This document shows positions 3,476 through 33,812 of a stretch of DNA of 64,000 nt, one piece after another. A program made the position numbers and the translations under genes. The number at the start of each line of letters is the position of its first letter. Within the stretch, counting starts at the first letter, position 1. The notes under the pieces were generated by a model. It saw only the letters and a program-made list of their open reading frames with translations, was not told the origin of the DNA and ran no database searches. Origin of the DNA: Pohlia nutans (lineage: Eukaryota > Streptophyta > Bryopsida > Bryales > Mniaceae); contig CM040088.1 in NCBI GenBank assembly GCA_022496805.1, forward strand, positions 9,145,001 to 9,209,000, written 5' to 3'.

Positions 3476-5428
3476 CTATGAAGCGAACCAGCCATAGCTG
3501 TGCAATCCCTTGCCCAGCAAGTTGACACCCAAGTAACAAATCCAAATGACGAAGAAGCCTCCAGACGCCACTATAGCCGGTTTCTTCCCCTGCCAGCCTT
3601 TGTTCATCCGCGTGTGAACATAAATTGCAAAAACCAACCATGTGATGAGCGCCCATGTTTCTTTAGGATCCCAGCTCCAGTAAGAGCCCCAGGCTTCATT
3701 CGCCCACACTGCTCCGGAGAGAATGCCAATAGTCAAGAGAGGAAAACCTAACGTGATGCTTCGGTAGCTGTAGTGGTCCAGTTGTTGACCTAAGTTCGAC
3801 CTCTGCGCAGCCTTGGTGTCCACGAACAGGAAGGCAATGGCGAGCAAGGAGCCGATCATGAGTGTGGAATAGCTGAAGATCATCATGGACACGTGCATCA
3901 TGAGCCAGTTGGATTGCAACGCAGGCACCAACGCCGTGGATTGCTGCATCTCCTTAGGAATCCCCAGCGTTGCAAACGCATTCGTAAGCAGCGCACTCGG
4001 AGCAGTGATAACCCCAATCCAATCAGTCTTGGCTTGATTCTCAAGCACTAAATGAATCGTGCAGAAGCACCAGGAAAGAAACATAGAGGATTCGTACAAA
4101 TTGCTCAGGGGCAAATGCCCTGATGAAGCCCATCGGCTGAGGAGAATCCCGGTCAGGCACGCGTAGGAAACGCCCATAGCAACCTTGCCGACAAGCTTCA
4201 ATCCCTCATTCTTCATGTACAGAGGCTTCCCCCAGTGAATTAGGGTTGTAAGAAACAGAGTAGCGAACGAGGTGCGCGTCAAGAGAGGCTCGCCCAATGC
4301 GGAGCTCGTAACGTACGTCGCGAGGTTATTGGAAAAAGGATCTGTTACATGGTCAATTAGGTTTTTCACTGGCCCTTTGCCTGTCACGACCGCCTGCGCG
4401 GAGAATCCAAGCAACGAGACTAAAGCGAGACGGCCATTCTTGATCTCCTTCACAGTTAGGGTCACAAGATCATCAGAGCTTTTCGCCAGCCCCAACGGAT
4501 CAAACGAGTCACCTCCAAAAGGTCCTCCAAAAACTCCCAGCGCTCCCACGACCATCACCTGGCAAGCAAGAATGGCGCCAAGGGTTTGAACTTCCCCGAG
4601 CGCACTCAGGTTTCCAAACTCCACGCCGAGAAGCTCCGGGGCAATGCATCCCAGGGACACCAGCATGGCCAGCCGCCCCTGCGTGACCTCCAAGGCGCGG
4701 TTCCTGACGAAGCTCTCCGGGTCGAAAGCAATTCCGCCACTCTCATCACCGACATAGCCACTCTCGCCGAATTCCTCAGACAAATACGACGGCGTCTCAC
4801 TTGAAAGAGAGCCTATCCTCTTCGGCCTGTCAAGCTGGCTCTGCCTGCCATTGCAATTCGACATCAAACGATCGTCTCATCTCTCCCGCTAACCCTAAAA
4901 TTCACCTTTCCCGAATGGGTAGATCAAAATTCGAATTGAGTGCGGTTTGAAGGCAATGTAGGGAATGAGTTCGAGATTTCCGAGAGCAAAAGTGAAGCTA
5001 GCATCGCTCACATTCTAATGAGTGGACTCTAATTACCGTCGTTCAGTTGCTGTACTAACACACAGACTGGATCGAGATACTCGTAAAACGTCATGAGCCC
5101 TTTCATGTAATGAAAAATCACATTGGTGCTATCAACTTTACCAATCCACAAGATATGAAATAGAGGCCTGGACAAATCGATCACACGTGCATTATACACA
5201 TTACCACCTTCAAAAAACGCACACAAACGCAAAGTCCCATTGATTCGAAAATTGGAGGCCGGGGGTGCGTGCTTACCGATTTTTCTCGCTGGACCTTCGC
5301 TTGACGGTCCGCTTGCTGCGCATGGTGACGCGGGGATGGCCATGCTTCCCGAGCTTGCGCGTGAATTCGTTGTGGAGCTGCAACAAGGAGCGGCCCAGGA
5401 ACGCGGTGGGCGCACAGGCAGCAGCCAT
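3476..5428 (-). CDS. LHC (Lhcb-like) - CcsA fusion protein, nuclear-encoded, plastid-targeted
   Basis: Two exons: 5428-5277 and 4844-3476, joined across a GT-AG intron (donor GTAAGC, acceptor TGGCAG) that restores the frame at an Arg codon; 506 residues. Residues 1-50 look like an Lhcb transit peptide (MAAAC start, RVTMR near the processing region). Residues 51-228 follow LHCII: DRPK, ETPSYL, helix B EVTQGRLAML, helix C with ACQV, helix A VKEIKNGRLAL, then GKGP and DHVTDP. Residues about 235-506 are a full-length CcsA: HLPLSNLYES, APSALLTNAFATLG, VPALQSNWLMMHVSMM, the tryptophan-rich haem-handling WWD segment at about 431-448, and LHSYGW at the C-terminus. CcsA works with Ccs1 to attach haem to apocytochromes f and c6 on the lumen side of thylakoids. 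It is normally encoded in the plastid. Exon 2 is one uninterrupted frame through both halves, so the join is not an assembly of neighbouring exons. The start at 5428 lies in a good GCCATGGCT context; an in-frame codon at 5491 would add 21 residues. Confidence 0.93.
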
Positions 5429-6734: not shown

Positions 6735-7708
6735 CAATAGGGTGACATTCAAATTGGCCGTTTAGTAGTTCCAGGGATAGTGTCCTACACTGCTGCCAAC
6801 TTTGACACCCTCCCCAAAGCTGAGAAATTGTTATTTTACCATGAAAATTTGGGGACAGCATCATCTTTATGTTGAAAACATGCATACCAAATTTCAAGTC
6901 CAGGAGACTTATACAAAAAAACTTATGAAAGATCTACCAACATGGGATAGCTGTGAGAAAAGTGTCACAGCTGCCAACTTTGACACCCTCCCAAGAATTG
7001 AGGAAATTGTTTTTGCCCATGAAATTTTTGGAGCAAAAACATTTTTATGTTGTTTGCATGTGTGGAAAGCTTCAAGTCCAAAAGACCCATACAAAAAATA
7101 ATATTCCAAATCTACCAACATGTGTAGTTTTGAGAAACAAAGGGGGTTACTACTTCCAACTTTGACGCCCTCCTTAGGATTGAGTTTTTGTTGATACATA
7201 ATGAAATTTTTGGCAAAAGATCATCTCTACGCTGGTAACATGTGGGATAAATTTCAAAGCCAAAAGACATACATAAAAAAAGTTATTCCATATCTATCAA
7301 CATGTTTCTCAAAACTACACATGTTGGTAGATTTGGAATATTATTTTTTGTATGGGTCTTTTGGACTTGAAGCTTTCCACACATGCAAACAACATAAAAA
7401 TGTTTTTGCTCCAAAACTTTCGTGGGCAAAAACAATTTCCTCAATTCTTGGGAGGGTGTCAAAGTTGGCAGCTGTGACACTTTTCTCGCAGCTATCCCAT
7501 GTTGGTAGATCTTGCATAAGTTTTTTTGGTATAAGTCTCCTGGACTTGAAATTTGGTATGCATGTTTTCAACATAAAGATGATGCTGTCCCCAAATTTTC
7601 ATGGTAAAATAACAATTTCTCAGCTTTGGGGAGGGTGTCAAAGTTGGCAGCAGTGTAGGACACTATCCCTGGAACTACTAAACGGCCAATTTGAATGTCA
7701 CCCTATTG
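6735..7708. mobile_element. 974-bp foldback element, TA-flanked
   Basis: Two arms of about 400 bp (6735-7137 and 7304-7708) are near-perfect inverted copies around a 166-bp spacer. Termini CAATAGGGTGACATTC and complement; TA at 6733-6734 and 7709-7710, the second being shared with the adjacent Tc1 element. It codes for nothing convincing; open frames in the arms mirror each other. It shares the CCAACTTTGACACCCTCC block and the CAnTAGGGT start with the Tc1 element, so it is probably a non-autonomous relative. Confidence 0.9.
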
Positions 7709-7710
7709 TA

Positions 7711-10482
7711 CAGTAGGGTCCAACATGGAATGGCGTTTTTGGTTTTGCAGTGGGAAAAAAATCAAGTCTGCCTACTTTGGAAGCCTCTAGAGAGCTCAAA
7801 AATTGGTATTTTACCTTGAAAATTTTACCATAGGCTTGAAATCAAGTTGTTAGTATGCCTACCAAGTTTCAAAGCCAAACGATTCACCAAAAACAAGTTA
7901 TTTGAAATCTACCAAGATAGGTAGCTGTAAATTTTTTTTCACTCTTGCCAACTTTGACAGCCTCCCGAGAATTGAGATTATTTTTCCTTGCTTTGATTTT
8001 TTTGTGGTAGAACACAATTTGTGTTAGTCATATATGGTAAAAATCTGAAGTCCAAAATATTAGTGAAAAAAAAGATATTCCCAATCTACTAACATGTGTT
8101 ATTTTGCGGTATGCTTGTAGAAATCAACTCCACTCCAACCAACTTTGACACCCTCCCAATGGCTAAAAAATGGCCCATTTGCCATGAAATTTTTGTCACA
8201 AGATAAGCTACATGTTAATGACTAGTGTGCCAAAATTCAAGCTCTTACACAAAGAATGTAACACCTAATCTACCAACGTGTATGTCTTCCACTTGCCTCT
8301 ATCACTGATTGTAACCTAGCAGGCATGGAATGACATAGTTGAAGGAGCTTTTGACCACTTATTATCTCCTACTCTCTTGCAATAACTACTCTTAAGTCAC
8401 TTGTATTTTTAGGGCGTATTGAACCATGTTGAACTGCATCTTTCAAAATCTTCCAAAGATTCTCAATTGGATTGAGATCAAGAGAGTTTGCGGGCCAATC
8501 AAGCTTCTCTAAACGGTGTGCCTGCCTCCATTCTTTACTTAGTTTGCTTCTATGGACAGGGGCACCATCTTCCATGAGTAATCCTTGTGGTATTTTCTTC
8601 ATAAAATGAAGTAACTCCCCATTGTAAACCACTTCAACAAAATCCTTTGCAGAGCGCCGATCCTTAGGCATAAAAACAAGTCGTGACTTCTGCCCTCCAG
8701 AAAAGGCACCCCAAATCATCAATGAAGTCCTCCCACTCTTGAAAGATGGAACTATACAACTTGAAGCAAAGCGCTCATGCACAGTTCTCCAAACATGAAT
8801 TTGTCTAGAGTTTTTACCAACTTCAAACGTGGACTCATCCGTCCAAACAACTTGCTCCCACTCTTCTGCACTCCATCCACAATACTTTCAAGCAAAAACT
8901 AATCGTTGAGATATGTGACGAGGTGTCAAAAAAGGTTTTTTGACTGCAATTCGACTATGAATGCCACTATCATGTAACGCCTTTCGCATAGTATTTCTAC
9001 ATACTTTAGTAGGAAACATATTAGTAATGTCAGACAACGTGATGCGACGATCAGCTTGTAAAACACGTGTTATACCACGATCATCTCTATCACTAAGTTT
9101 TTTTTCATATTTTCTAGAAGATGCTTTACTTTTGTAGGTTTCAAATTCTCGAAAGTTCTTCACCAACCTCTGAACTGTCCTAATAGGGACTCCAGCAATA
9201 GCTGCAATTTCAACACCTTTCTTCCCTCCCTCACTCAAACCCACAATACGTGCACGGATTTCATCCGGAATAGCCATCAATCAGAACTGTAATATGAAAA
9301 TTCGATCTAAAATCTTAAGAACCCAACCACATGTCCATACAGTCATGCCCCTCTCCCAAATTAACGTTCATGAGCCTACCATATGTCCATACAGTCATGC
9401 CCTCCTCTGAAATCAACATTCATGAGCCTAATGAGGTTATGCAAATTTTCAGTCCCTAACCAGTTACTAGTATGTGTCCAGACTCCTCTCTCCTCTACAA
9501 AAGCCCTCATGTGCACATCCAGTTGCTCCCACATCACCATACATATGCTCTCCTCTCAAATAAACCCTCTCAAACTCAATCTATAACTCACAATGATTGT
9601 CAATTCTCAAAGCAAGCATTGATGTAGGGAACAAAAGCTCCTTCATGCATATGTGGCATTCAAATTCTCAACAAGTGTATTCATTGAGATATGACAAGTG
9701 TGCTTATGTGGTATGCAAATCCTAAGCAAGTATAGTCATTGGGATGTGACAAGTGTGCACAACTAAATTTGGATGTTCCTGATTTTTTGAGAAGAATTTT
9801 TATTTAGGTGTTGTATCATGTGGACAATTTCATATAGGAAGCTCACTACCCACCCTTTTAAGCATGAACATTCCAAACATGCTCTTAAATTGCTCTCACA
9901 ATTACACATGTCGGTAGATTGTGAGTAATTTTTTTGTGTAAGCTTTTAGAGCTTGAATTTTGGCACACTAGTCATTAACATGTAGCTTATCTTGTGACAA
10001 AAATTTCATGGCAAATGGGCCATTTTTTAGCCATTGGGAGGGTGTCAAAGTTGGTTGGAGTGGAGTTGATTTCTACAAGCATACCGCAAAATAACACATG
10101 TTAGTAGATTGGGAATATCTTTTTTTTCACTAATATTTTGGACTTCAGATTTTTACCATATATGACTAACACAAATTGTGTTCTACCACAAAAAAATCAA
10201 AGCAAGGAAAAATAATCTCAATTCTCGGGAGGCTGTCAAAGTTGGCAAGAGTGAAAAAAAATTTACAGCTACCTATCTTGGTAGATTTCGAATAACTTGT
10301 TTTTGGTGAATCGTTTGGCTTTGAAACTTGGTAGGCATACTAACAACTTGATTTCAAGCCTATGGTAAAATTTTCAAGGTAAAATACCAATTTTTGAGCT
10401 CTCTAGAGGCTTCCAAAGTAGGCAGACTTGTTTTTTTTCCCACTGCAAAACCAAAAACGCCATTCCATGTTGGACCCTACTG
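7711..10482 (-). mobile_element. Tc1/mariner transposon with very long inverted repeats
   Basis: Ends are CAGTAGGGTCCAACATGG and its complement, flanked by TA at 7709-7710 and 10483-10484, the TA target duplication of this superfamily. The inverted repeats are about 575 bp each (7711-8285 and 9905-10482), far longer than the 20-30 bp of many Tc1 elements. They contain a repeated CCAACTTTGACAcCCTCC block about every 185 bp. The single gene is the dead transposase on the minus strand. Confidence 0.93.
8270..9277 (-). pseudogene. Tc1-like DD34E transposase with two stop codons
   Basis: A 336-codon frame (usual Tc1 size) inside the 2.77-kb element. N-terminal helix-turn-helix: EIAAIAGVPIRTVQRLVKNF near residues 23-42. 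Catalytic residues are D147 (VVWTDES), D237 (EDGAPVH) and E272 (DLNPIENLW), with 34 residues between the second D and E, which defines Tc1-like DD34E. The C-terminus (ARLQSVIEASGRHTRW) is also typical. Two in-frame stops break it: TGA at 8890-8888 (codon 130, probably a CGA arginine changed by CpG decay) and TAG at 8371-8369 (codon 303). No frameshift is seen, so inactivation looks recent. The 3' end overlaps the left inverted repeat. Confidence 0.92.
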
Positions 10483-22322: not shown

Positions 22323-23716
22323 TTACAAAGTTCTCCAGGGCTTCTCTTCCACAATGGAGACCACCATGCCTTCAAGCTCTGGCTCCAGAATGATTTGGCA
22401 ACCCAGCCTTGCATGTGGGTCAGCTTTCTTAGCATGCGTCCTGTCTTTCAACACCTCAAGCTCATCTTCACTTCTTGCAGGTAGCTTGTCCAGCCACTCA
22501 TTGGCAATGCTGACCTGCAAACCAAAGAAGAACAAAATTACAAATTAGTAACAGATAAATCTTGAGCAACTCTAACGTGAAGGAAGCATGTACATCCACC
22601 AAATGTAACACCTAAGAAAACAGGAGTAGTGTAGAGGACCCGCCATGCAAACCCGGACCCCGAGGGACCGCTTTTTCATAAATATTGTAGTATACCTTAA
22701 GAGGGATAACATGCATGAACTAGCGGCCATTATGGCCTTCTCAGAAATCCTACTCGCTCCAATCTGTATGTTTTGTGATTTATGTGGAGTCACCCTGAAG
22801 CCAGGATCGGGGTTAAAAGCATCATGCCTGCAGGGGAAAAAACCCTACAGTATGCTGGGTTTCCTCCTCCGAGTCCTCTATAGTACAAACTAGCCCAAAC
22901 ACTGAAGTCTGAAGCCTCCGTGACATTGCCAATTCCGTGTTTCATTCAGAAATTCGCATGAATTGCTCTACGCTTTGCTAAAATCTTCCAAGCAGTGAAA
23001 CTATATTGCACAGACAACGCGGGAATTGCATCCCCAATTGTGGACGGTATCTCGGTTCGTTTCCATAATGACAAGAATGTCAGATATTAACAAACAAAAC
23101 TACTCTTAAAATGGGACACCTGTAGTACTGGGGACCTCCACAGGGAAACGTCCCTATGGGGTTGCCTGTGTATTCTGCAGGGAAGGTCCCTAGTACTACA
23201 TTATTACCAATTGGGTCTTCAAATCGTGTGAAGAGATCATTGCAATGTTAGGGTTCTATTACACCCGAAAAAACCAGGCTCGTACGAAAAAGATCTTCAC
23301 ACAATTCCCACACCCAAACCCTAAAGCGCTCAAATTAAAAGAATGCATCCCGGAACCAATTCAAAAATGGTCTCATCCCATACATCCAAGCTCCCCGACA
23401 CAAAACCCTAAATTCCACCAAACCCTGCGCTCACCTCGCATTCCGCCCCGCAGGCAGTAATGTCTTCCAAGCGATGGCGCTCGGGATCGAACAAGCCCCT
23501 GTCGACGAGGGTGCGCAGCAGCGTGTGGCCGGCCAGGCCCTTGATCGGGTGACGCTGGCCGTCCTCGTCAATGGCGGTCATGTGCACAACGCGATCGGAG
23601 ACTTTGGCCGAGCCATGGCGCACCACGGAGGTCTCGGACTGCGTGGCGATGGAGCCCGCGTGACGAACGTGTTGAGAGAGGAGACGGCTCACGCCCCGGA
23701 AGCTGCGCATGGCCAT
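22323..23716 (-). CDS. C1-FDX-like mitochondrial complex I ferredoxin subunit
   Basis: Two exons, 23716-23435 and 22514-22323, phase 0, GT-AG; 157 residues. Residues 1-35 are basic and Ser/Arg-rich, a plausible mitochondrial presequence (MAMRSFRGVSRLLSQHVRH). The rest matches the plant complex I ferredoxin-like subunit (Arabidopsis At3g07480 type): AIDEDGQ, GLAGHTLLRTL, LFDPERHRLEDI, then C89 and C93, EWLDKLPAR, and RLGC at C133 followed by ELEGMVV near the end. Only three cysteines remain in positions related to the ferredoxin cluster, with spacing C-x3-C rather than C-x2-C, so a normal [2Fe-2S] cluster is unlikely. In plants this protein sits in the bridge between the membrane arm, peripheral arm and gamma carbonic anhydrases. 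The intron (about 920 bp) holds two repeats. A longer start at 23845 exists in frame but lacks the clean presequence. Confidence 0.9.
22612..22895 (-). repeat. Dispersed repeat in C1-FDX-like intron
   Basis: Second copy of the repeat in the DAD1 intron; the TATGCTGGGTTTCCTC block is identical. Confidence 0.65.
23122..23199. repeat. 78-bp palindromic element in C1-FDX-like intron
   Basis: GTAGTACTGGGGACC and GGTCCCTAGTACTAC at the ends with more inner pairing (AGGGAAACGTCCCT). Confidence 0.7.
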
Positions 23717-23936
23717 GGCTCTCGACCTTCGCGTTTCGCTGCAACAACACCTGCACTCCCGCTCGTCCAACACCACATGGACAGTAATATGCTCAGAGCT
23801 CCTTGGCTTTGCCAGTGACGATGACCGCCCTCCGTCGATCGTCACTTCATCGACGGTGAATCTTCACCTCGAGATTAGGTCATCACTGAGGGAGATATAC
23901 TGTTAAAGAAGGTGGAAGTACGTATTACCATCCATT

Positions 23937-29030: not shown

Positions 29031-32000
29031 ATGGTGGTACTCATAGCTACATCTACGAAGCTCTTGCCAGCCTCTGCACACAATTGTCAGCTCCCAATAA
29101 GCTCTCATACCGCACAAACTTTGCATTTTCATCCACTGAGTAACTGCTTACCTAATCAATTTCGATGTCCTAAACATCACCCTTATGGTAGCCTGCCTGA
29201 TCATTCCAGTTACAAGTTTAGAACTACATCCAAATCTTTGCAAGGAAAGAAAAACTGGCGATTGTTAGCCGGATTAGGAGATGATTTTAAGAGCAATCAA
29301 AACGCAAGGCGTAGGAGCGGACAATTTCTTGGCCGGTTCTTGAAGAGGGGCAATTCAGGGATAGACGTGAGTGATGATTCACAAGAGAGTGCGAATGACT
29401 CCTCTACAGCCAGGCAGGGGCCACGAAAGGATCGATTTAGACCGACATTTGAGTTCCTTGAAGATAGCAGTGAGCCACCTCTAAAACCATTCGAAATAGT
29501 AAAGTCCGAAACATCTATGAAAGACCGACTGTTGGAAGCGGCACTGAAGAAAGTAAATCAGGCTAAGGAGCTTGCCACCAACACGTCGAATTACTTCAGC
29601 AGCGTAGATGCTTCACCTGGTACTCCACTTCTCCCCTTCCTTGGTGACAGCTTTCTGGGACTGGGAAGTCTAGTGCTTGTGGCCATAGTTCTAGCTGGTT
29701 GGTGGAGAAAATGGCGGCTCGGAAAAAAGACTGAAGGGCCAGGCTCAACAAGTGCATCTAACACCGAAGAGGTTCTTAATGCTCAGGCTGCAGTGGCAGC
29801 TCCTGTTGCACTATCGATGTTACTGCAAAGTGATATGTTGAAGAAAGAAAGTGCAGAATGGCTGAACATGGTTTTAGGTAAGGTTTGGAACCTGTATCGT
29901 CGGACGTTGGAGAACACATTGGTTGAGGCTATACAGCCTGTTATTGATGAAATTCCAGAGAAGCCACCTCATGTAGAGCGAGTTGTTCTCAAGCAGTTCT
30001 TTTTGGGTGATGAACCGGTAACTTTGCGATCTATTGAACGTCGTACATCTCGACGTGCTAATGACCTTCAGTACGTCGCTCTCCTTATTCCTTCTTTCCC
30101 CAGGATTAGTACTAGCTTCTTGACATGGAGGACGCAGGCTGACTCATGGCCAATGAGTATGGATGGCCACGGAGCATGAAATAGAATGGCGTTGAAAATT
30201 TTGATTATATAGAGGATCATATCCGTTATTTGACATGGAATGATTTTGAGTCTTCAGGTACCACGTTGGATTACGATACACAGGCAACTCTCGCATGGTG
30301 TTCTCTATAGCCCTGAAGTTTGGTTTCCTGCCGATCAAAATTCCAGTTGCCATTCGGGGATTGGATCTAGATGGAGAAGTCTGGGTGAAGCTTAGACTAA
30401 TTCCAACAGAACCCTGGGTAGGGACTGCAACTTGGGCCTTTGTTTCTCCACCCAAAGTCACTTTGGCTTTGGCTCCATTCCGACTCTTCAATCTCATGGG
30501 TATGTAACCAAAACGATATCTTGTCGCATTTTTATACGCTGGCAATACTTAAAACACTATTTTAGCTCTTGCCCTATGTATAGTAAACACGGTACCGGTC
30601 TGATATTTTTCAAAAGTTTTCTGTTGAAGAGAGGGTCTTTGCGACCCTCATCTTTTCCCCTTCAGTTTGTGCGTTAAGGTGCTTCTAAGGCCTAATTACA
30701 GGACTACACGATTGGAAATTTCTTTTCTCAACATCCACACATGCAACAGTGTATAATACATGTATTGCAATAATTTGACGTAGGTGGCCATGGCTTGGAG
30801 TGCTTTTAAGCTTTTATTTTAGAGTGTGATTTACGGTGCTAACATTAGTTGTAATTTTCGATTCATGTTTGGCTGGGCTCTTCATCGAACAGCTATACCA
30901 TTTCTAAACATGTAAGTTTATTGACCTGCACATTTTGATTGTTTTCAAGAAGGGAAAAAAAACTGCTCAACCCTCTAGTGTTAGAAGTTTCTCTGTAAAG
31001 CATAGATCTCTCACTAGTTTCTTTGAAAGTGTTACCTTTAAAGATTGTCATTGAAGGTCATTAAAAGCAACGACACTCTGAACCACAAGTAGATGATGCA
31101 GTGCAAACGAATAGTTAGCAGATAAGAGAAGTATCTCAGTTGCTGACACGTATTTCTTATGAATCTCCTATGTACTGAAAAACCTGAAAACTTGCTTGAA
31201 TGAATGAGTGAAGTTCTTCAAAAGATTGCACTTTGTCCCGATGGTTGACGTCTTTTCCCATGAGAATAATTGCAGATTCTTGATAAAGTTGCTCACTCAA
31301 GATCTTCCACTTCTATTCGTTCGTCCCAACAAACAAGTAGTCAATTATCTCAAGGGGCAAACAGCTGGACCTCTTTCGAAGGATTTCAAGGACGGAATAT
31401 TCGAAGTAAAAGGTTTTGCTGGAGAGCTGTCAGTAACACTACTAGAAGCACGGAAACTTAATTACTTTCCCATAGGTAATTTCAGTGCCATACAAGCAGT
31501 GTGAATTCATTTGAACAGGGACTTGATATAATCGATTGCAAGAATTTGCAACTGTTGCATGTCTTTCCAACACTCAGGATCTGTTTCCTGGGGAATCGTT
31601 TCCTTTTGCAATAAACTTAATGTGTTGCATTTGCACTTCTTTCGCATGTCTGTTAATAAAATATGGTATGTTTTGTGTTGAGCAGGTAAGACAGATCCGT
31701 ATGCAGTTTTCTTATTAGGAGAGCAGGCTTTTCGAAGTAAAAGAAATAGTAAAACATCAATTACTGGACCTCCAGGCGCGCCAGTTTGGAACCAGGTAAT
31801 GCATGGGCGCCCTTTGTGTTCATGTGCTTTCAGATCATTCACATTGCACTTGATGACATTCGACGTCTGCTTAACGGTTTTCAGTACTCATATAGATTCT
31901 TGTTGATAATCAGGACTTCCGTATGCTAGTTGTCGACCCCTCGACACAGAAACTCAAGATAAGAGTCCGAGATTTTGTTGGTTATCTTGGATTGACTACT

Positions 32001-33812
32001 ATTACAGTCGGCTATGTTGAGGTACATGTCTACTAACTTTACTGAATCCTGTGTGTATTCGGTTTTTGAGGGTTTCCCCCTTTATATTGTCGATTGTGGT
32101 CCAGACAACATTTTTTGAATGTTTTTGGCTTCTGTTTAAATCTTCGTCAGCTCATCTGCTCCTAGATAGTATTTCAATCTGGACATGCAACTCATTTATG
32201 AGGGACTTCTAATATCTTAATTTATCGATTTCATTAAAACCTGTGCATCCACATAACACTTTTGAAAGGAGCTCCTAACATCTTGGGCCCATCTCCCAAT
32301 TCAAGGAAGAATCGGGGTATCCAAGATACTTTGATCCTCGGACATCTTCTTTCTTTGACACACATCCTCTTGCATCTTGAGTTCAAGAATTTGGAAGAAG
32401 GAAGCCCCTGACATCAATCACTTTAATAGCTCCTTGTCAATAGCTCGTTGCTTAACACTTGTGAGCAAGCATAAATAGCATGTTATTGCACACCATTCTC
32501 AGGCATATTAATTGAAACTAATTCACATTCTGTTTTCTTATATGTTGTCAGTTAGATGGGTGCACTCATAGAACAACTTAAAAGTGTTATGTCAGACATG
32601 AATATCTCATTCATCTCAAGTTTATCAAACCGCTCATGAATCTTGCGTGTTAGGCCTAATTCTTATGTGAAATTGTCTGAGCAGATTCCCCTTGATGATC
32701 TCCAAGACACAGTTCCTGTCAACAAAGTCCTTACCCTGAGGAATGATCGATGGTTTTTCCTTGGACGGAATGCTGGGGAGCTTCTGCTCCGTCTGACTTA
32801 TAAAGCGTATGTTGCTGAGGAGGAGGAGGAGGCTGGTGTTGGGGACAGGCCTGTAACGAACAAGGTTTGGAATGAAATTGGAAACTTTATTAGCAAAGAA
32901 ATGGAGGAAACGGATGTAAATCCAGGGAAGCGGCAGCTACGGGACGCTATTGTCATGTCAGTCGATGCTCAAAGGGGTGACCGAGGGTTTCGGTTTTCCA
33001 ATCCTTTGATGACCCAATCTACCCCAGCTATTAGTAAACCTAGTCCCGTGACAATTGATCCGGTTACTGGACTTGTTAATCCCAATGCTGTAACAAGGGG
33101 GCCTCTAAACCCGAGTTCCTCTGAACCCGAAACACCAGCAATTCGGAGCAATCCGGCTCTAGAAAATCAGGAGAAGAGGGAAGGGGAAAGTTGGGCACTG
33201 CAATTCGGTAGATTTAGACAAGAGAGTAAGTGTAACTCTTTCTTCTCTTTGTTGTGATTGTTGTCATTTTGAGTTTCTTAGCGCAGGGTGAGGATCTGCC
33301 TCAAAGTTTTACCCTTGAAATTTGGTTTATAATCGTCATTTTTTCCCTTTCCTTTAATTATGTCTTGTTTGCACGTGTGCACTGAACTCACATTATAACA
33401 GTAGAATAGTTAATAAACGTTCGTTGATATGTCACCTTCTTGTGTTTCTGTTCATATCACTGCAAAGTCATTTTTTAAAGGTCATTCTGAGTGACGGCTC
33501 TACTGGTTCTATACCACGTAGCATGGGGAGGTATTCTTATTATCATTTCGACCATAGGCAGACCTCCGTACAAATCATGGGCAAGATACTTTTTATGATG
33601 TTGAAAAGTTCTTGAAACAGTTTACCAAAAACCTTGTTGGCAACCTCCCATGGTGTTTCTGCCCTGAGGTGATGAGGTTGATTGACGATGACTGATGAGA
33701 AAGTGGTTTGGGGTTTGGTGCAGATGCGTCTTTGTTATGGCTGGCCATCGTCACTGGAGTTGCGCTGGTTGTTGCGCTTGATCTCAATTTATCTAATCTA
33801 TTCAATCCTTGA
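29031..33812 (+). CDS. SMP and C2 domain lipid-transfer protein, NTMC2 type 5-like
   Basis: Seven exons by frame and splice signals: 29031-30070, 30258-30503, 31276-31475, 31686-31795, 31914-32021, 32685-33225, 33724-33812; about 777 residues. A Ser-rich N-terminus without acidic clusters may be a plastid transit peptide. Residues about 207-224 form a membrane segment (GSLVLVAIVLAGWW). The SMP lipid-binding fold spans about 270-450 (AEWLNMVLGKVWNLYRR, HVGLRYTGNSRMVF, WAFVSPPKVTLALAPFRLFN). A C2 domain follows (GELSVTLLEARKL, TDPYAVFLLG, VWNQDFRMLV). The tail is acidic and Pro-rich and ends in a second hydrophobic stretch. SMP proteins move lipids at membrane contact sites; the Arabidopsis type 5 members are linked to chloroplasts (recalled family knowledge). 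Two points are less sure. I use a weak donor GTAACC for exon 2 because the stronger GTATGT four bases upstream breaks the frame. The last exon is chosen because it keeps frame and adds a membrane tail. Confidence 0.85.

Follow-up and report, generated by a model that had tools for sequence, protein, structure and literature searches.

The window analysed here is a stretch of 64,000 nucleotides from the moss Pohlia nutans (C4:9145001-9209000, within a 698-Mb assembly of 332 contigs), and its central feature is a minus-strand gene that joins a light-harvesting protein of the LHCII type to the cytochrome c haem ligase CcsA. An open reading frame scan gives 463 open codons at positions 3476-4867. 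Residue numbers in this text refer to that frame; 43 has to be added to obtain the numbering of the predicted spliced product, which has 506 residues. This product is composed of exon 1 (5277-5428), which in the spliced frame encodes an LHCII-type transit peptide of about 50 residues, and exon 2 (3476-4844), an open frame holding the LHC domain, the joint and CcsA up to the stop codon TAG. The two exons are separated by a predicted GT-AG intron of 432 bp (4845-5276), in phase 2 and with an AG/G acceptor. The initial annotation described a single straight reading frame; this applies to the LHC and CcsA parts, which are continuous in exon 2, but not to the transit peptide, which is encoded in a separate exon behind the predicted intron.

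Splice enumeration yields many open combinations, and the intron at 4845-5276 is one of them. It was chosen because its donor, GTAAGC, is the best by eye, because the protein clusters P0001, P0004 and P0005 run through this junction, and because Lhcb genes of the same genome have an intron at the same position. In the alignment, these three clusters are continuous over the predicted exon 1/exon 2 junction. The junction-spanning P0001 and P0004 are at most consistent with transcription of the fusion.

The LHCII-type domain (residues 24-190, 4298-4798) is recognised by the chlorophyll a-b binding family PF00504, which matches residues 36-159 (E 4.7e-21, 76.4 bits against a cut-off of 22.3). Among PDB chains with a single LHC domain, the best matches to this half are of the Lhcb2/Lhcb1 types; when domain scores are summed, the tandem LHCI chains of 9vfj stand above them. 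Hydropathy predicts three membrane helices. The AlphaFold models were rejected as proof of the LHC fold, since pLDDT in this half is mostly below 50, and the three helices consequently rest on homology and hydropathy. The previously proposed Lhcb-like transit peptide and three-helix module are borne out to this extent, with the qualification that in the alignment the module is shortened between the first and second helices. The DPLG motif, the core of the L18 element, lies at 4490-4501; in the alignment it is present in nine of nine fusions and absent from the two reduced relatives P0009 and P0010. At the joint, the LHCII C-terminus can be aligned right up to CcsA, and the CcsA part begins near the plastid start codon, so that two nearly whole proteins stand end to end.

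The CcsA part (residues 192-463, 3479-4294) has eight predicted membrane helices. PF01578 (Cytochrom_C_asm) matches residues 254-456 (E 3.9e-73, 246 bits against a cut-off of 29.9), and the NCBI equivalog TIGR03144 (CcsB/CcsA) scores 335.6 bits against a curated cut-off of 187.6. The AlphaFold model of this part consists of eight long helices, and the best Foldseek matches are the bacterial CcsBA structures 7s9y and 7s9z (E about 3e-07), with a low TM-score of 0.36-0.38 over the whole query. In a 15-row alignment (A1), the WWD haem-handling segment at residues 388-405 (3653-3706) is invariant at 388-397 and 399-405 and nearly so at S398. The histidines H251, H325, H418 and H456 are invariant in all 15 rows; H325 (3893-3895) stands where the fifth CcsA helix begins and H456 (3500-3502) near the C-terminus. 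The earlier description of a complete CcsA with its WWD segment and conserved histidines is therefore upheld. According to the part of PMC5526843 consulted, CcsA and CCS1 carry haem to the lumen and attach it to cytochromes c, the WWD segment and two histidines of CcsA being lumenal and one histidine stromal. By analogy, H325 may have a lumenal role. In another CcsA-like protein, P0017, the WWD segment is duplicated in tandem, which could be an assembly error.

Several other features occur in the window. Two adjacent minus-strand frames at 8369-9280, with DDE_3 and a Tc3-type helix-turn-helix, form a Tc1/mariner-like transposase that is apparently split. Open reading frames on opposite strands at 6909-7716 encode nearly the same peptide (CFSKLHMLVDLEYYFLYGSFG...), which suggests an inverted repeat or foldback element. 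Two large plus-strand frames at 29031-33257 may belong to one multi-exon gene; the first matches the SMP domain weakly (PF25669, 20.2 bits, under the cut-off of 35) and the second has no Pfam match. An open reading frame at 23408-23845 on the minus strand resembles, by eye, a mitochondrial ferredoxin exon. An Rfam search of the whole window gave no match.

Chromosomal copies and the plastid position of ccsA

A genome search, in which 92 of 103 candidates were scored, identifies a second intact copy of the fusion on C3, with 98% identity. Exon 2 is identical between the copies at 1344 of 1369 positions, free of gaps, and the intron at 395 of 432 columns; the second copy retains GT and the acceptor, its donor reading GTACGC as against GTAAGC in the window. 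Codon changes between the copies comprise 20 synonymous and 9 nonsynonymous ones (dN 0.0078 and dS 0.0574 overall), with 10 and 3, respectively, in the CcsA half. Matches are found in similar pairs on C3/C4, C17/C18 and C1/C2, which suggests a recent genome doubling (fusion dS about 0.057). Six weak matches to the fusion query occur on C7, C8 and C9 (33% identity, residues 348-419, E 5.7e-4); they are taken for other haem lyases, possibly a mitochondrial CcmF-type sequence in several copies.

When Sphagnum CcsA is used as a query against the assembly, only the two fusion copies are hit at E <=0.001 (21 of 21 candidates scored), and no plain ccsA appears. The assembly does contain plastid DNA, with 63 matches to the PsaA/PsaB family, each of them on a contig numbered C26 or higher. 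Of 22 plastid pieces, 21 were scanned, the 397-base end of the 40-kb contig C66 being omitted; part of the sequence reads N. The usual position of ccsA in plastid DNA is between trnL-UAG and ndhD. Three of the 21 scanned pieces (L027, L033 and L038) carry rpl32 and trnL-UAG, and in L033, with protein genes named by eye from translations, the order is rpl21, rpl32, trnL-UAG, a spacer of 243 bp, ndhD, psaC, ndhE, ndhG and ndhI. In all three pieces ccsA is not there between trnL-UAG and ndhD, and the 243-bp spacer is identical. The look-up of ccsA in the plastid DNA of this species, suggested earlier, thus led to an empty slot, and an intact plastid ccsA was not found. An intact nuclear copy and an absent plastid copy, two of the observations by which endosymbiotic transfer is judged, coexist in one species.

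That moss plastomes have lost ccsA is already published, and a transfer to the nucleus is suspected there. Table 4 of PMC5877570 scores ccsA as absent from the plastomes of Physcomitrella, Tetraphis, Tortula and Sanionia, and an excerpt of PMC11202921 states that nearly all mosses lack plastid ccsA, Takakia excepted. In the sections of PMC4035505 consulted, ccsA is not mentioned. An excerpt of PMC6726147 restricts moss plastid ccsA to Takakia, yet P0013 is a Sphagnum CcsA cluster with 84 members; from this cluster, Sphagnum appears to keep a plain ccsA. In the titles and abstract beginnings of the literature searched, no paper on an LHC-CcsA fusion or on an identified nuclear moss ccsA was found. 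The sequence itself is already in databases as a hypothetical protein, and it is the explanation that appears to be new. The fusion gives a location for a photosynthesis-essential gene that most moss plastomes reportedly lack.

Lhcb ancestry and relatives of the fusion

All six Lhcb genes examined in the same genome (L003-L008) encode the transit peptide in a first exon, which is followed by an intron immediately ahead of the mature part. The script used for these introns considered phase-2 donors only; its choice is borne out by GTGAG donors, AG/G acceptors and the joined sequence SIW-YGADRPK, to be compared with SIWYGPDRPK in Sphagnum LHCII (P0221). The intron of the fusion has the same position as in these six of six genes (phase-2 donors). 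The exon 1 peptide scores 54-71 against each of the six transit peptides, with none of 1000 shuffles as high in any case, and reaches a local score of 96 against the Sphagnum LHCII transit peptide (shuffled mean 22.6, 0/1000 as high). It has no match in two flowering-plant LHCII proteins, where 61 (P0177) and 687 (P0192) of 1000 shuffles score as high. Because the first exon and the intron position are shared with six of six antenna genes of the same genome, ccsA appears to have been joined to an ordinary Lhcb gene, probably by insertion into, or just ahead of, the stop codon of an Lhcb copy in the genome. In the LHC trees, from one of which P0008 and from the other P0007 and P0008 were omitted because their N-terminal ends are missing, the LHC halves of the fusions form one clade (100/100), and the neighbours of this clade do not identify a sister Lhcb gene. 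This single clade suggests one origin of the fusion. Dense clusters of Lhcb-like matches are present on C11, C12, C1 and C2, for example about ten in roughly 60 kb at C12:25.19-25.24 Mb.

The occurrence of the fusion in related species, proposed earlier as a check, is confirmed by protein clusters. The eight nearest clusters among the best 120 of 8000 (P0001-P0008) all contain both domains, with 77-85% identity, and in P0007 and P0008 the N-terminus is incomplete. P0005 is KC19_9G112300 of Ceratodon purpureus, the same two-domain protein on a 17.5-Mb contig. A query with the first 215 residues returns the same eight clusters as the only both-domain proteins among the best 120 of 328. P0001-P0008 and KC19_9G112300 are known as database entries only, the latter annotated as a hypothetical protein. 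No fusion named as Physcomitrium patens was seen by eye among the best 120 of 8000 (two lists) or the best 120 of 328.

A 22-row tree of the CcsA half, for which eight plastid copies from outside the mosses served as root, unites the nuclear forms in one clade (99/99), and this clade groups with Takakia, Sphagnum and P0011, which lies on a 135-kb contig (99/99). With four cyanobacteria as the outgroup of a 34-row tree, the attachment point lies beside the fusions, which are then not nested among plants. This placement is tentatively read as a long-branch effect (branch 1.39).

Two relatives, P0009 and P0010, retain only the last LHC helix, which is helix A by homology. P0009 scores 81 against the fusion P0001 and P0010 scores 81 against Sphagnum LHCII, with 0/1000 shuffles as high for either; a PF00504 search at a limit of E 10 lists neither. 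P0009 lies inside the fusions with a support of 95/87 in the 34-row tree and 87/87 in the 22-row tree, and this supports a secondary decay of its LHC part; the alternative order, with the nine full fusions kept together, is not rejected in the AU test (p 0.06). The gene model of P0010 may be incomplete. Before CcsA, a single span is predicted in P0009 (hydropathy and a low-confidence AlphaFold helix); in P0010, hydropathy indicates a further segment (42-60) that straddles the joint, which makes its span count ambiguous.

Proposed delivery of CcsA and possible roles of the LHC half

The evidence from the chromosome and the plastid supports the earlier proposal that ccsA left the plastid for the nucleus and came to stand behind an LHC gene: the fusion lies on a chromosome in two copies, no plain ccsA is matched in the assembly, the usual plastid position is vacant in all three pieces that hold it, and related proteins have the same fusion. 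The nuclear fusion likely replaces the missing plastid ccsA, with its LHC half as the predicted carrier into the thylakoid membrane, and this reading is given a probability of roughly three in four. The view of the LHC half as a delivery vehicle, also put forward earlier, fits the anatomy, namely the homology of transit peptide and intron and the DPLG motif in nine of nine fusions; from this anatomy we infer delivery itself. In the part of PMC6244792 consulted, DPLG is described as the element by which LHC proteins bind cpSRP43.

In the proposed sequence of events, a ccsA sequence would have reached the nucleus and been attached after the final codons of a genomic Lhcb gene, which would have provided a promoter, a transit peptide and signals for thylakoid targeting in a single step. 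The fusion precursor would enter the chloroplast and start in the stroma, where cpSRP43 would recognise the DPLG element of the LHC half and Alb3 would then insert the precursor. LHCII has three spans, and its C-terminal end is in the lumen. Given a stromal start and three LHC spans, the N-terminus of CcsA would be placed in the lumen. This position and the helix count would in turn make the WWD segment, H325 and H456 lumenal, with H418 facing the stromal side. The predicted lumenal side of WWD, H325 and H456 would be the one on which haem is attached to cytochrome f. The single remaining span of P0009, an odd number, would preserve the orientation of CcsA.

A more general proposal can be offered tentatively, being somewhat more apt to fail than to hold. 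A three-span LHC protein would have been the vehicle for the exit of an eight-span enzyme from the plastid genome, providing import, cpSRP43/Alb3 insertion and the flip of the CcsA N-terminus, and decay would always leave an odd number of spans. This would amount to a topological rule for moving very hydrophobic plastid genes to the nucleus, followed a single time in the history of mosses and maintained ever since.

Other roles of the LHC half were weighed against that of a retained carrier. It could be a cleaved tag, which targets the precursor and is cut off after insertion to leave free CcsA. Identity to the window among P0001-P0006 is 67-82% in the LHC half vs 89-93% in CcsA, and such faster evolution is expected of a part that serves delivery only; under the predicted topology, however, the site of cleavage would need to be lumenal, and this explanation is considered unlikely.

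The LHC half could also have kept a function of its own, binding chlorophyll and tying haem attachment to antenna assembly or light; a link of this kind, between haem delivery and chlorophyll traffic, was also suggested earlier and is conjectural. This possibility can be judged from the chlorophyll ligands E65, H68, R70, E139, E180, N183, R185, Q197 and H212, numbered according to what we take to be the LHCII positions. E65 and R70 are kept in eight of eight fusions (P0008, which is without the first helix, being left out), and E180, N183, R185, Q197 and H212 in nine of nine, so that some pigment binding by the LHC half is possible. However, the position of H68 is occupied by Q in all eight, the stretch linking helix 1 to helix 2 is reduced in length, and E139, kept in eight of nine fusions, is lost in the window copy. 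The full set of these LHCII ligands is thus not found in the fusion, and its LHC half is consequently regarded as LHCII-derived and is not classed as an antenna protein. Moreover, P0009 and P0010 retain a single LHC helix with most ligands gone, which suggests that pigment binding is not essential everywhere. A two-function protein is considered distinctly improbable.

The decay of the LHC part in P0009 and P0010 would be expected if this half were a neutral leftover with no present role beyond its transit peptide. The changes between the two chromosomal copies, 5 nonsynonymous and 4 synonymous in the LHC half, point the same way, these numbers being too small to prove constraint. On the other side, the LHC frame and DPLG are kept in nine of nine fusions, and one helix persists even in the decayed forms; a leftover is considered very unlikely. 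Finally, an assembly chimera, a pseudogene or a recent insertion of plastid DNA can practically be dismissed: a second intact chromosomal copy exists, both domains recur in eight other protein clusters, so that no misassembly is found at the LHC/CcsA join, and the CcsA half has a GC content of 0.517 (GC3 0.651) vs 0.280 in the plastid piece L033.

If the carrier role of the LHC half is confirmed, a very hydrophobic eight-span protein returns from the nucleus to the chloroplast, and the fusion becomes a direct test of hydrophobicity as the reason why genes stay in organelles. It also suggests a rule for engineering, in which an LHC leader may relocate genes of plastid membrane proteins to the nucleus.

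Comparison with known systems

Compared with plastid-encoded CcsA of System II (ccsA/ycf5), the fusion contains a full CcsA with the WWD segment and conserved histidines, above the equivalog cut-off. It differs in its nuclear location and in the transit peptide and LHC domain that precede CcsA, and the aligned plastid copies have a much longer loop ahead of the last three helices. In bacterial CcsBA (Ccs1-CcsA), for example PDB 7s9y, CcsA likewise forms the C-terminal half of a longer membrane protein; its partner there, however, is System II CcsB/Ccs1, whereas the partner in the moss is an antenna protein. With major LHCII of the Lhcb1/2 type, the fusion shares the transit-peptide exon, the intron position, the helix A/B signatures and DPLG. 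Unlike LHCII, it is short between helices 1 and 2, has Q in place of H68, and continues into CcsA where the stop codon would be.

The closest precedents for such a capture by a resident gene are reportedly the nuclear transfers of rpl32 in SOD, accD behind LPD2 and rps14 in sdh2. In these cases, too, an organelle gene was made functional by joining an existing nuclear gene. Their cargoes are soluble, whereas the cargo of the moss fusion is an eight-span membrane protein joined to a thylakoid membrane protein.
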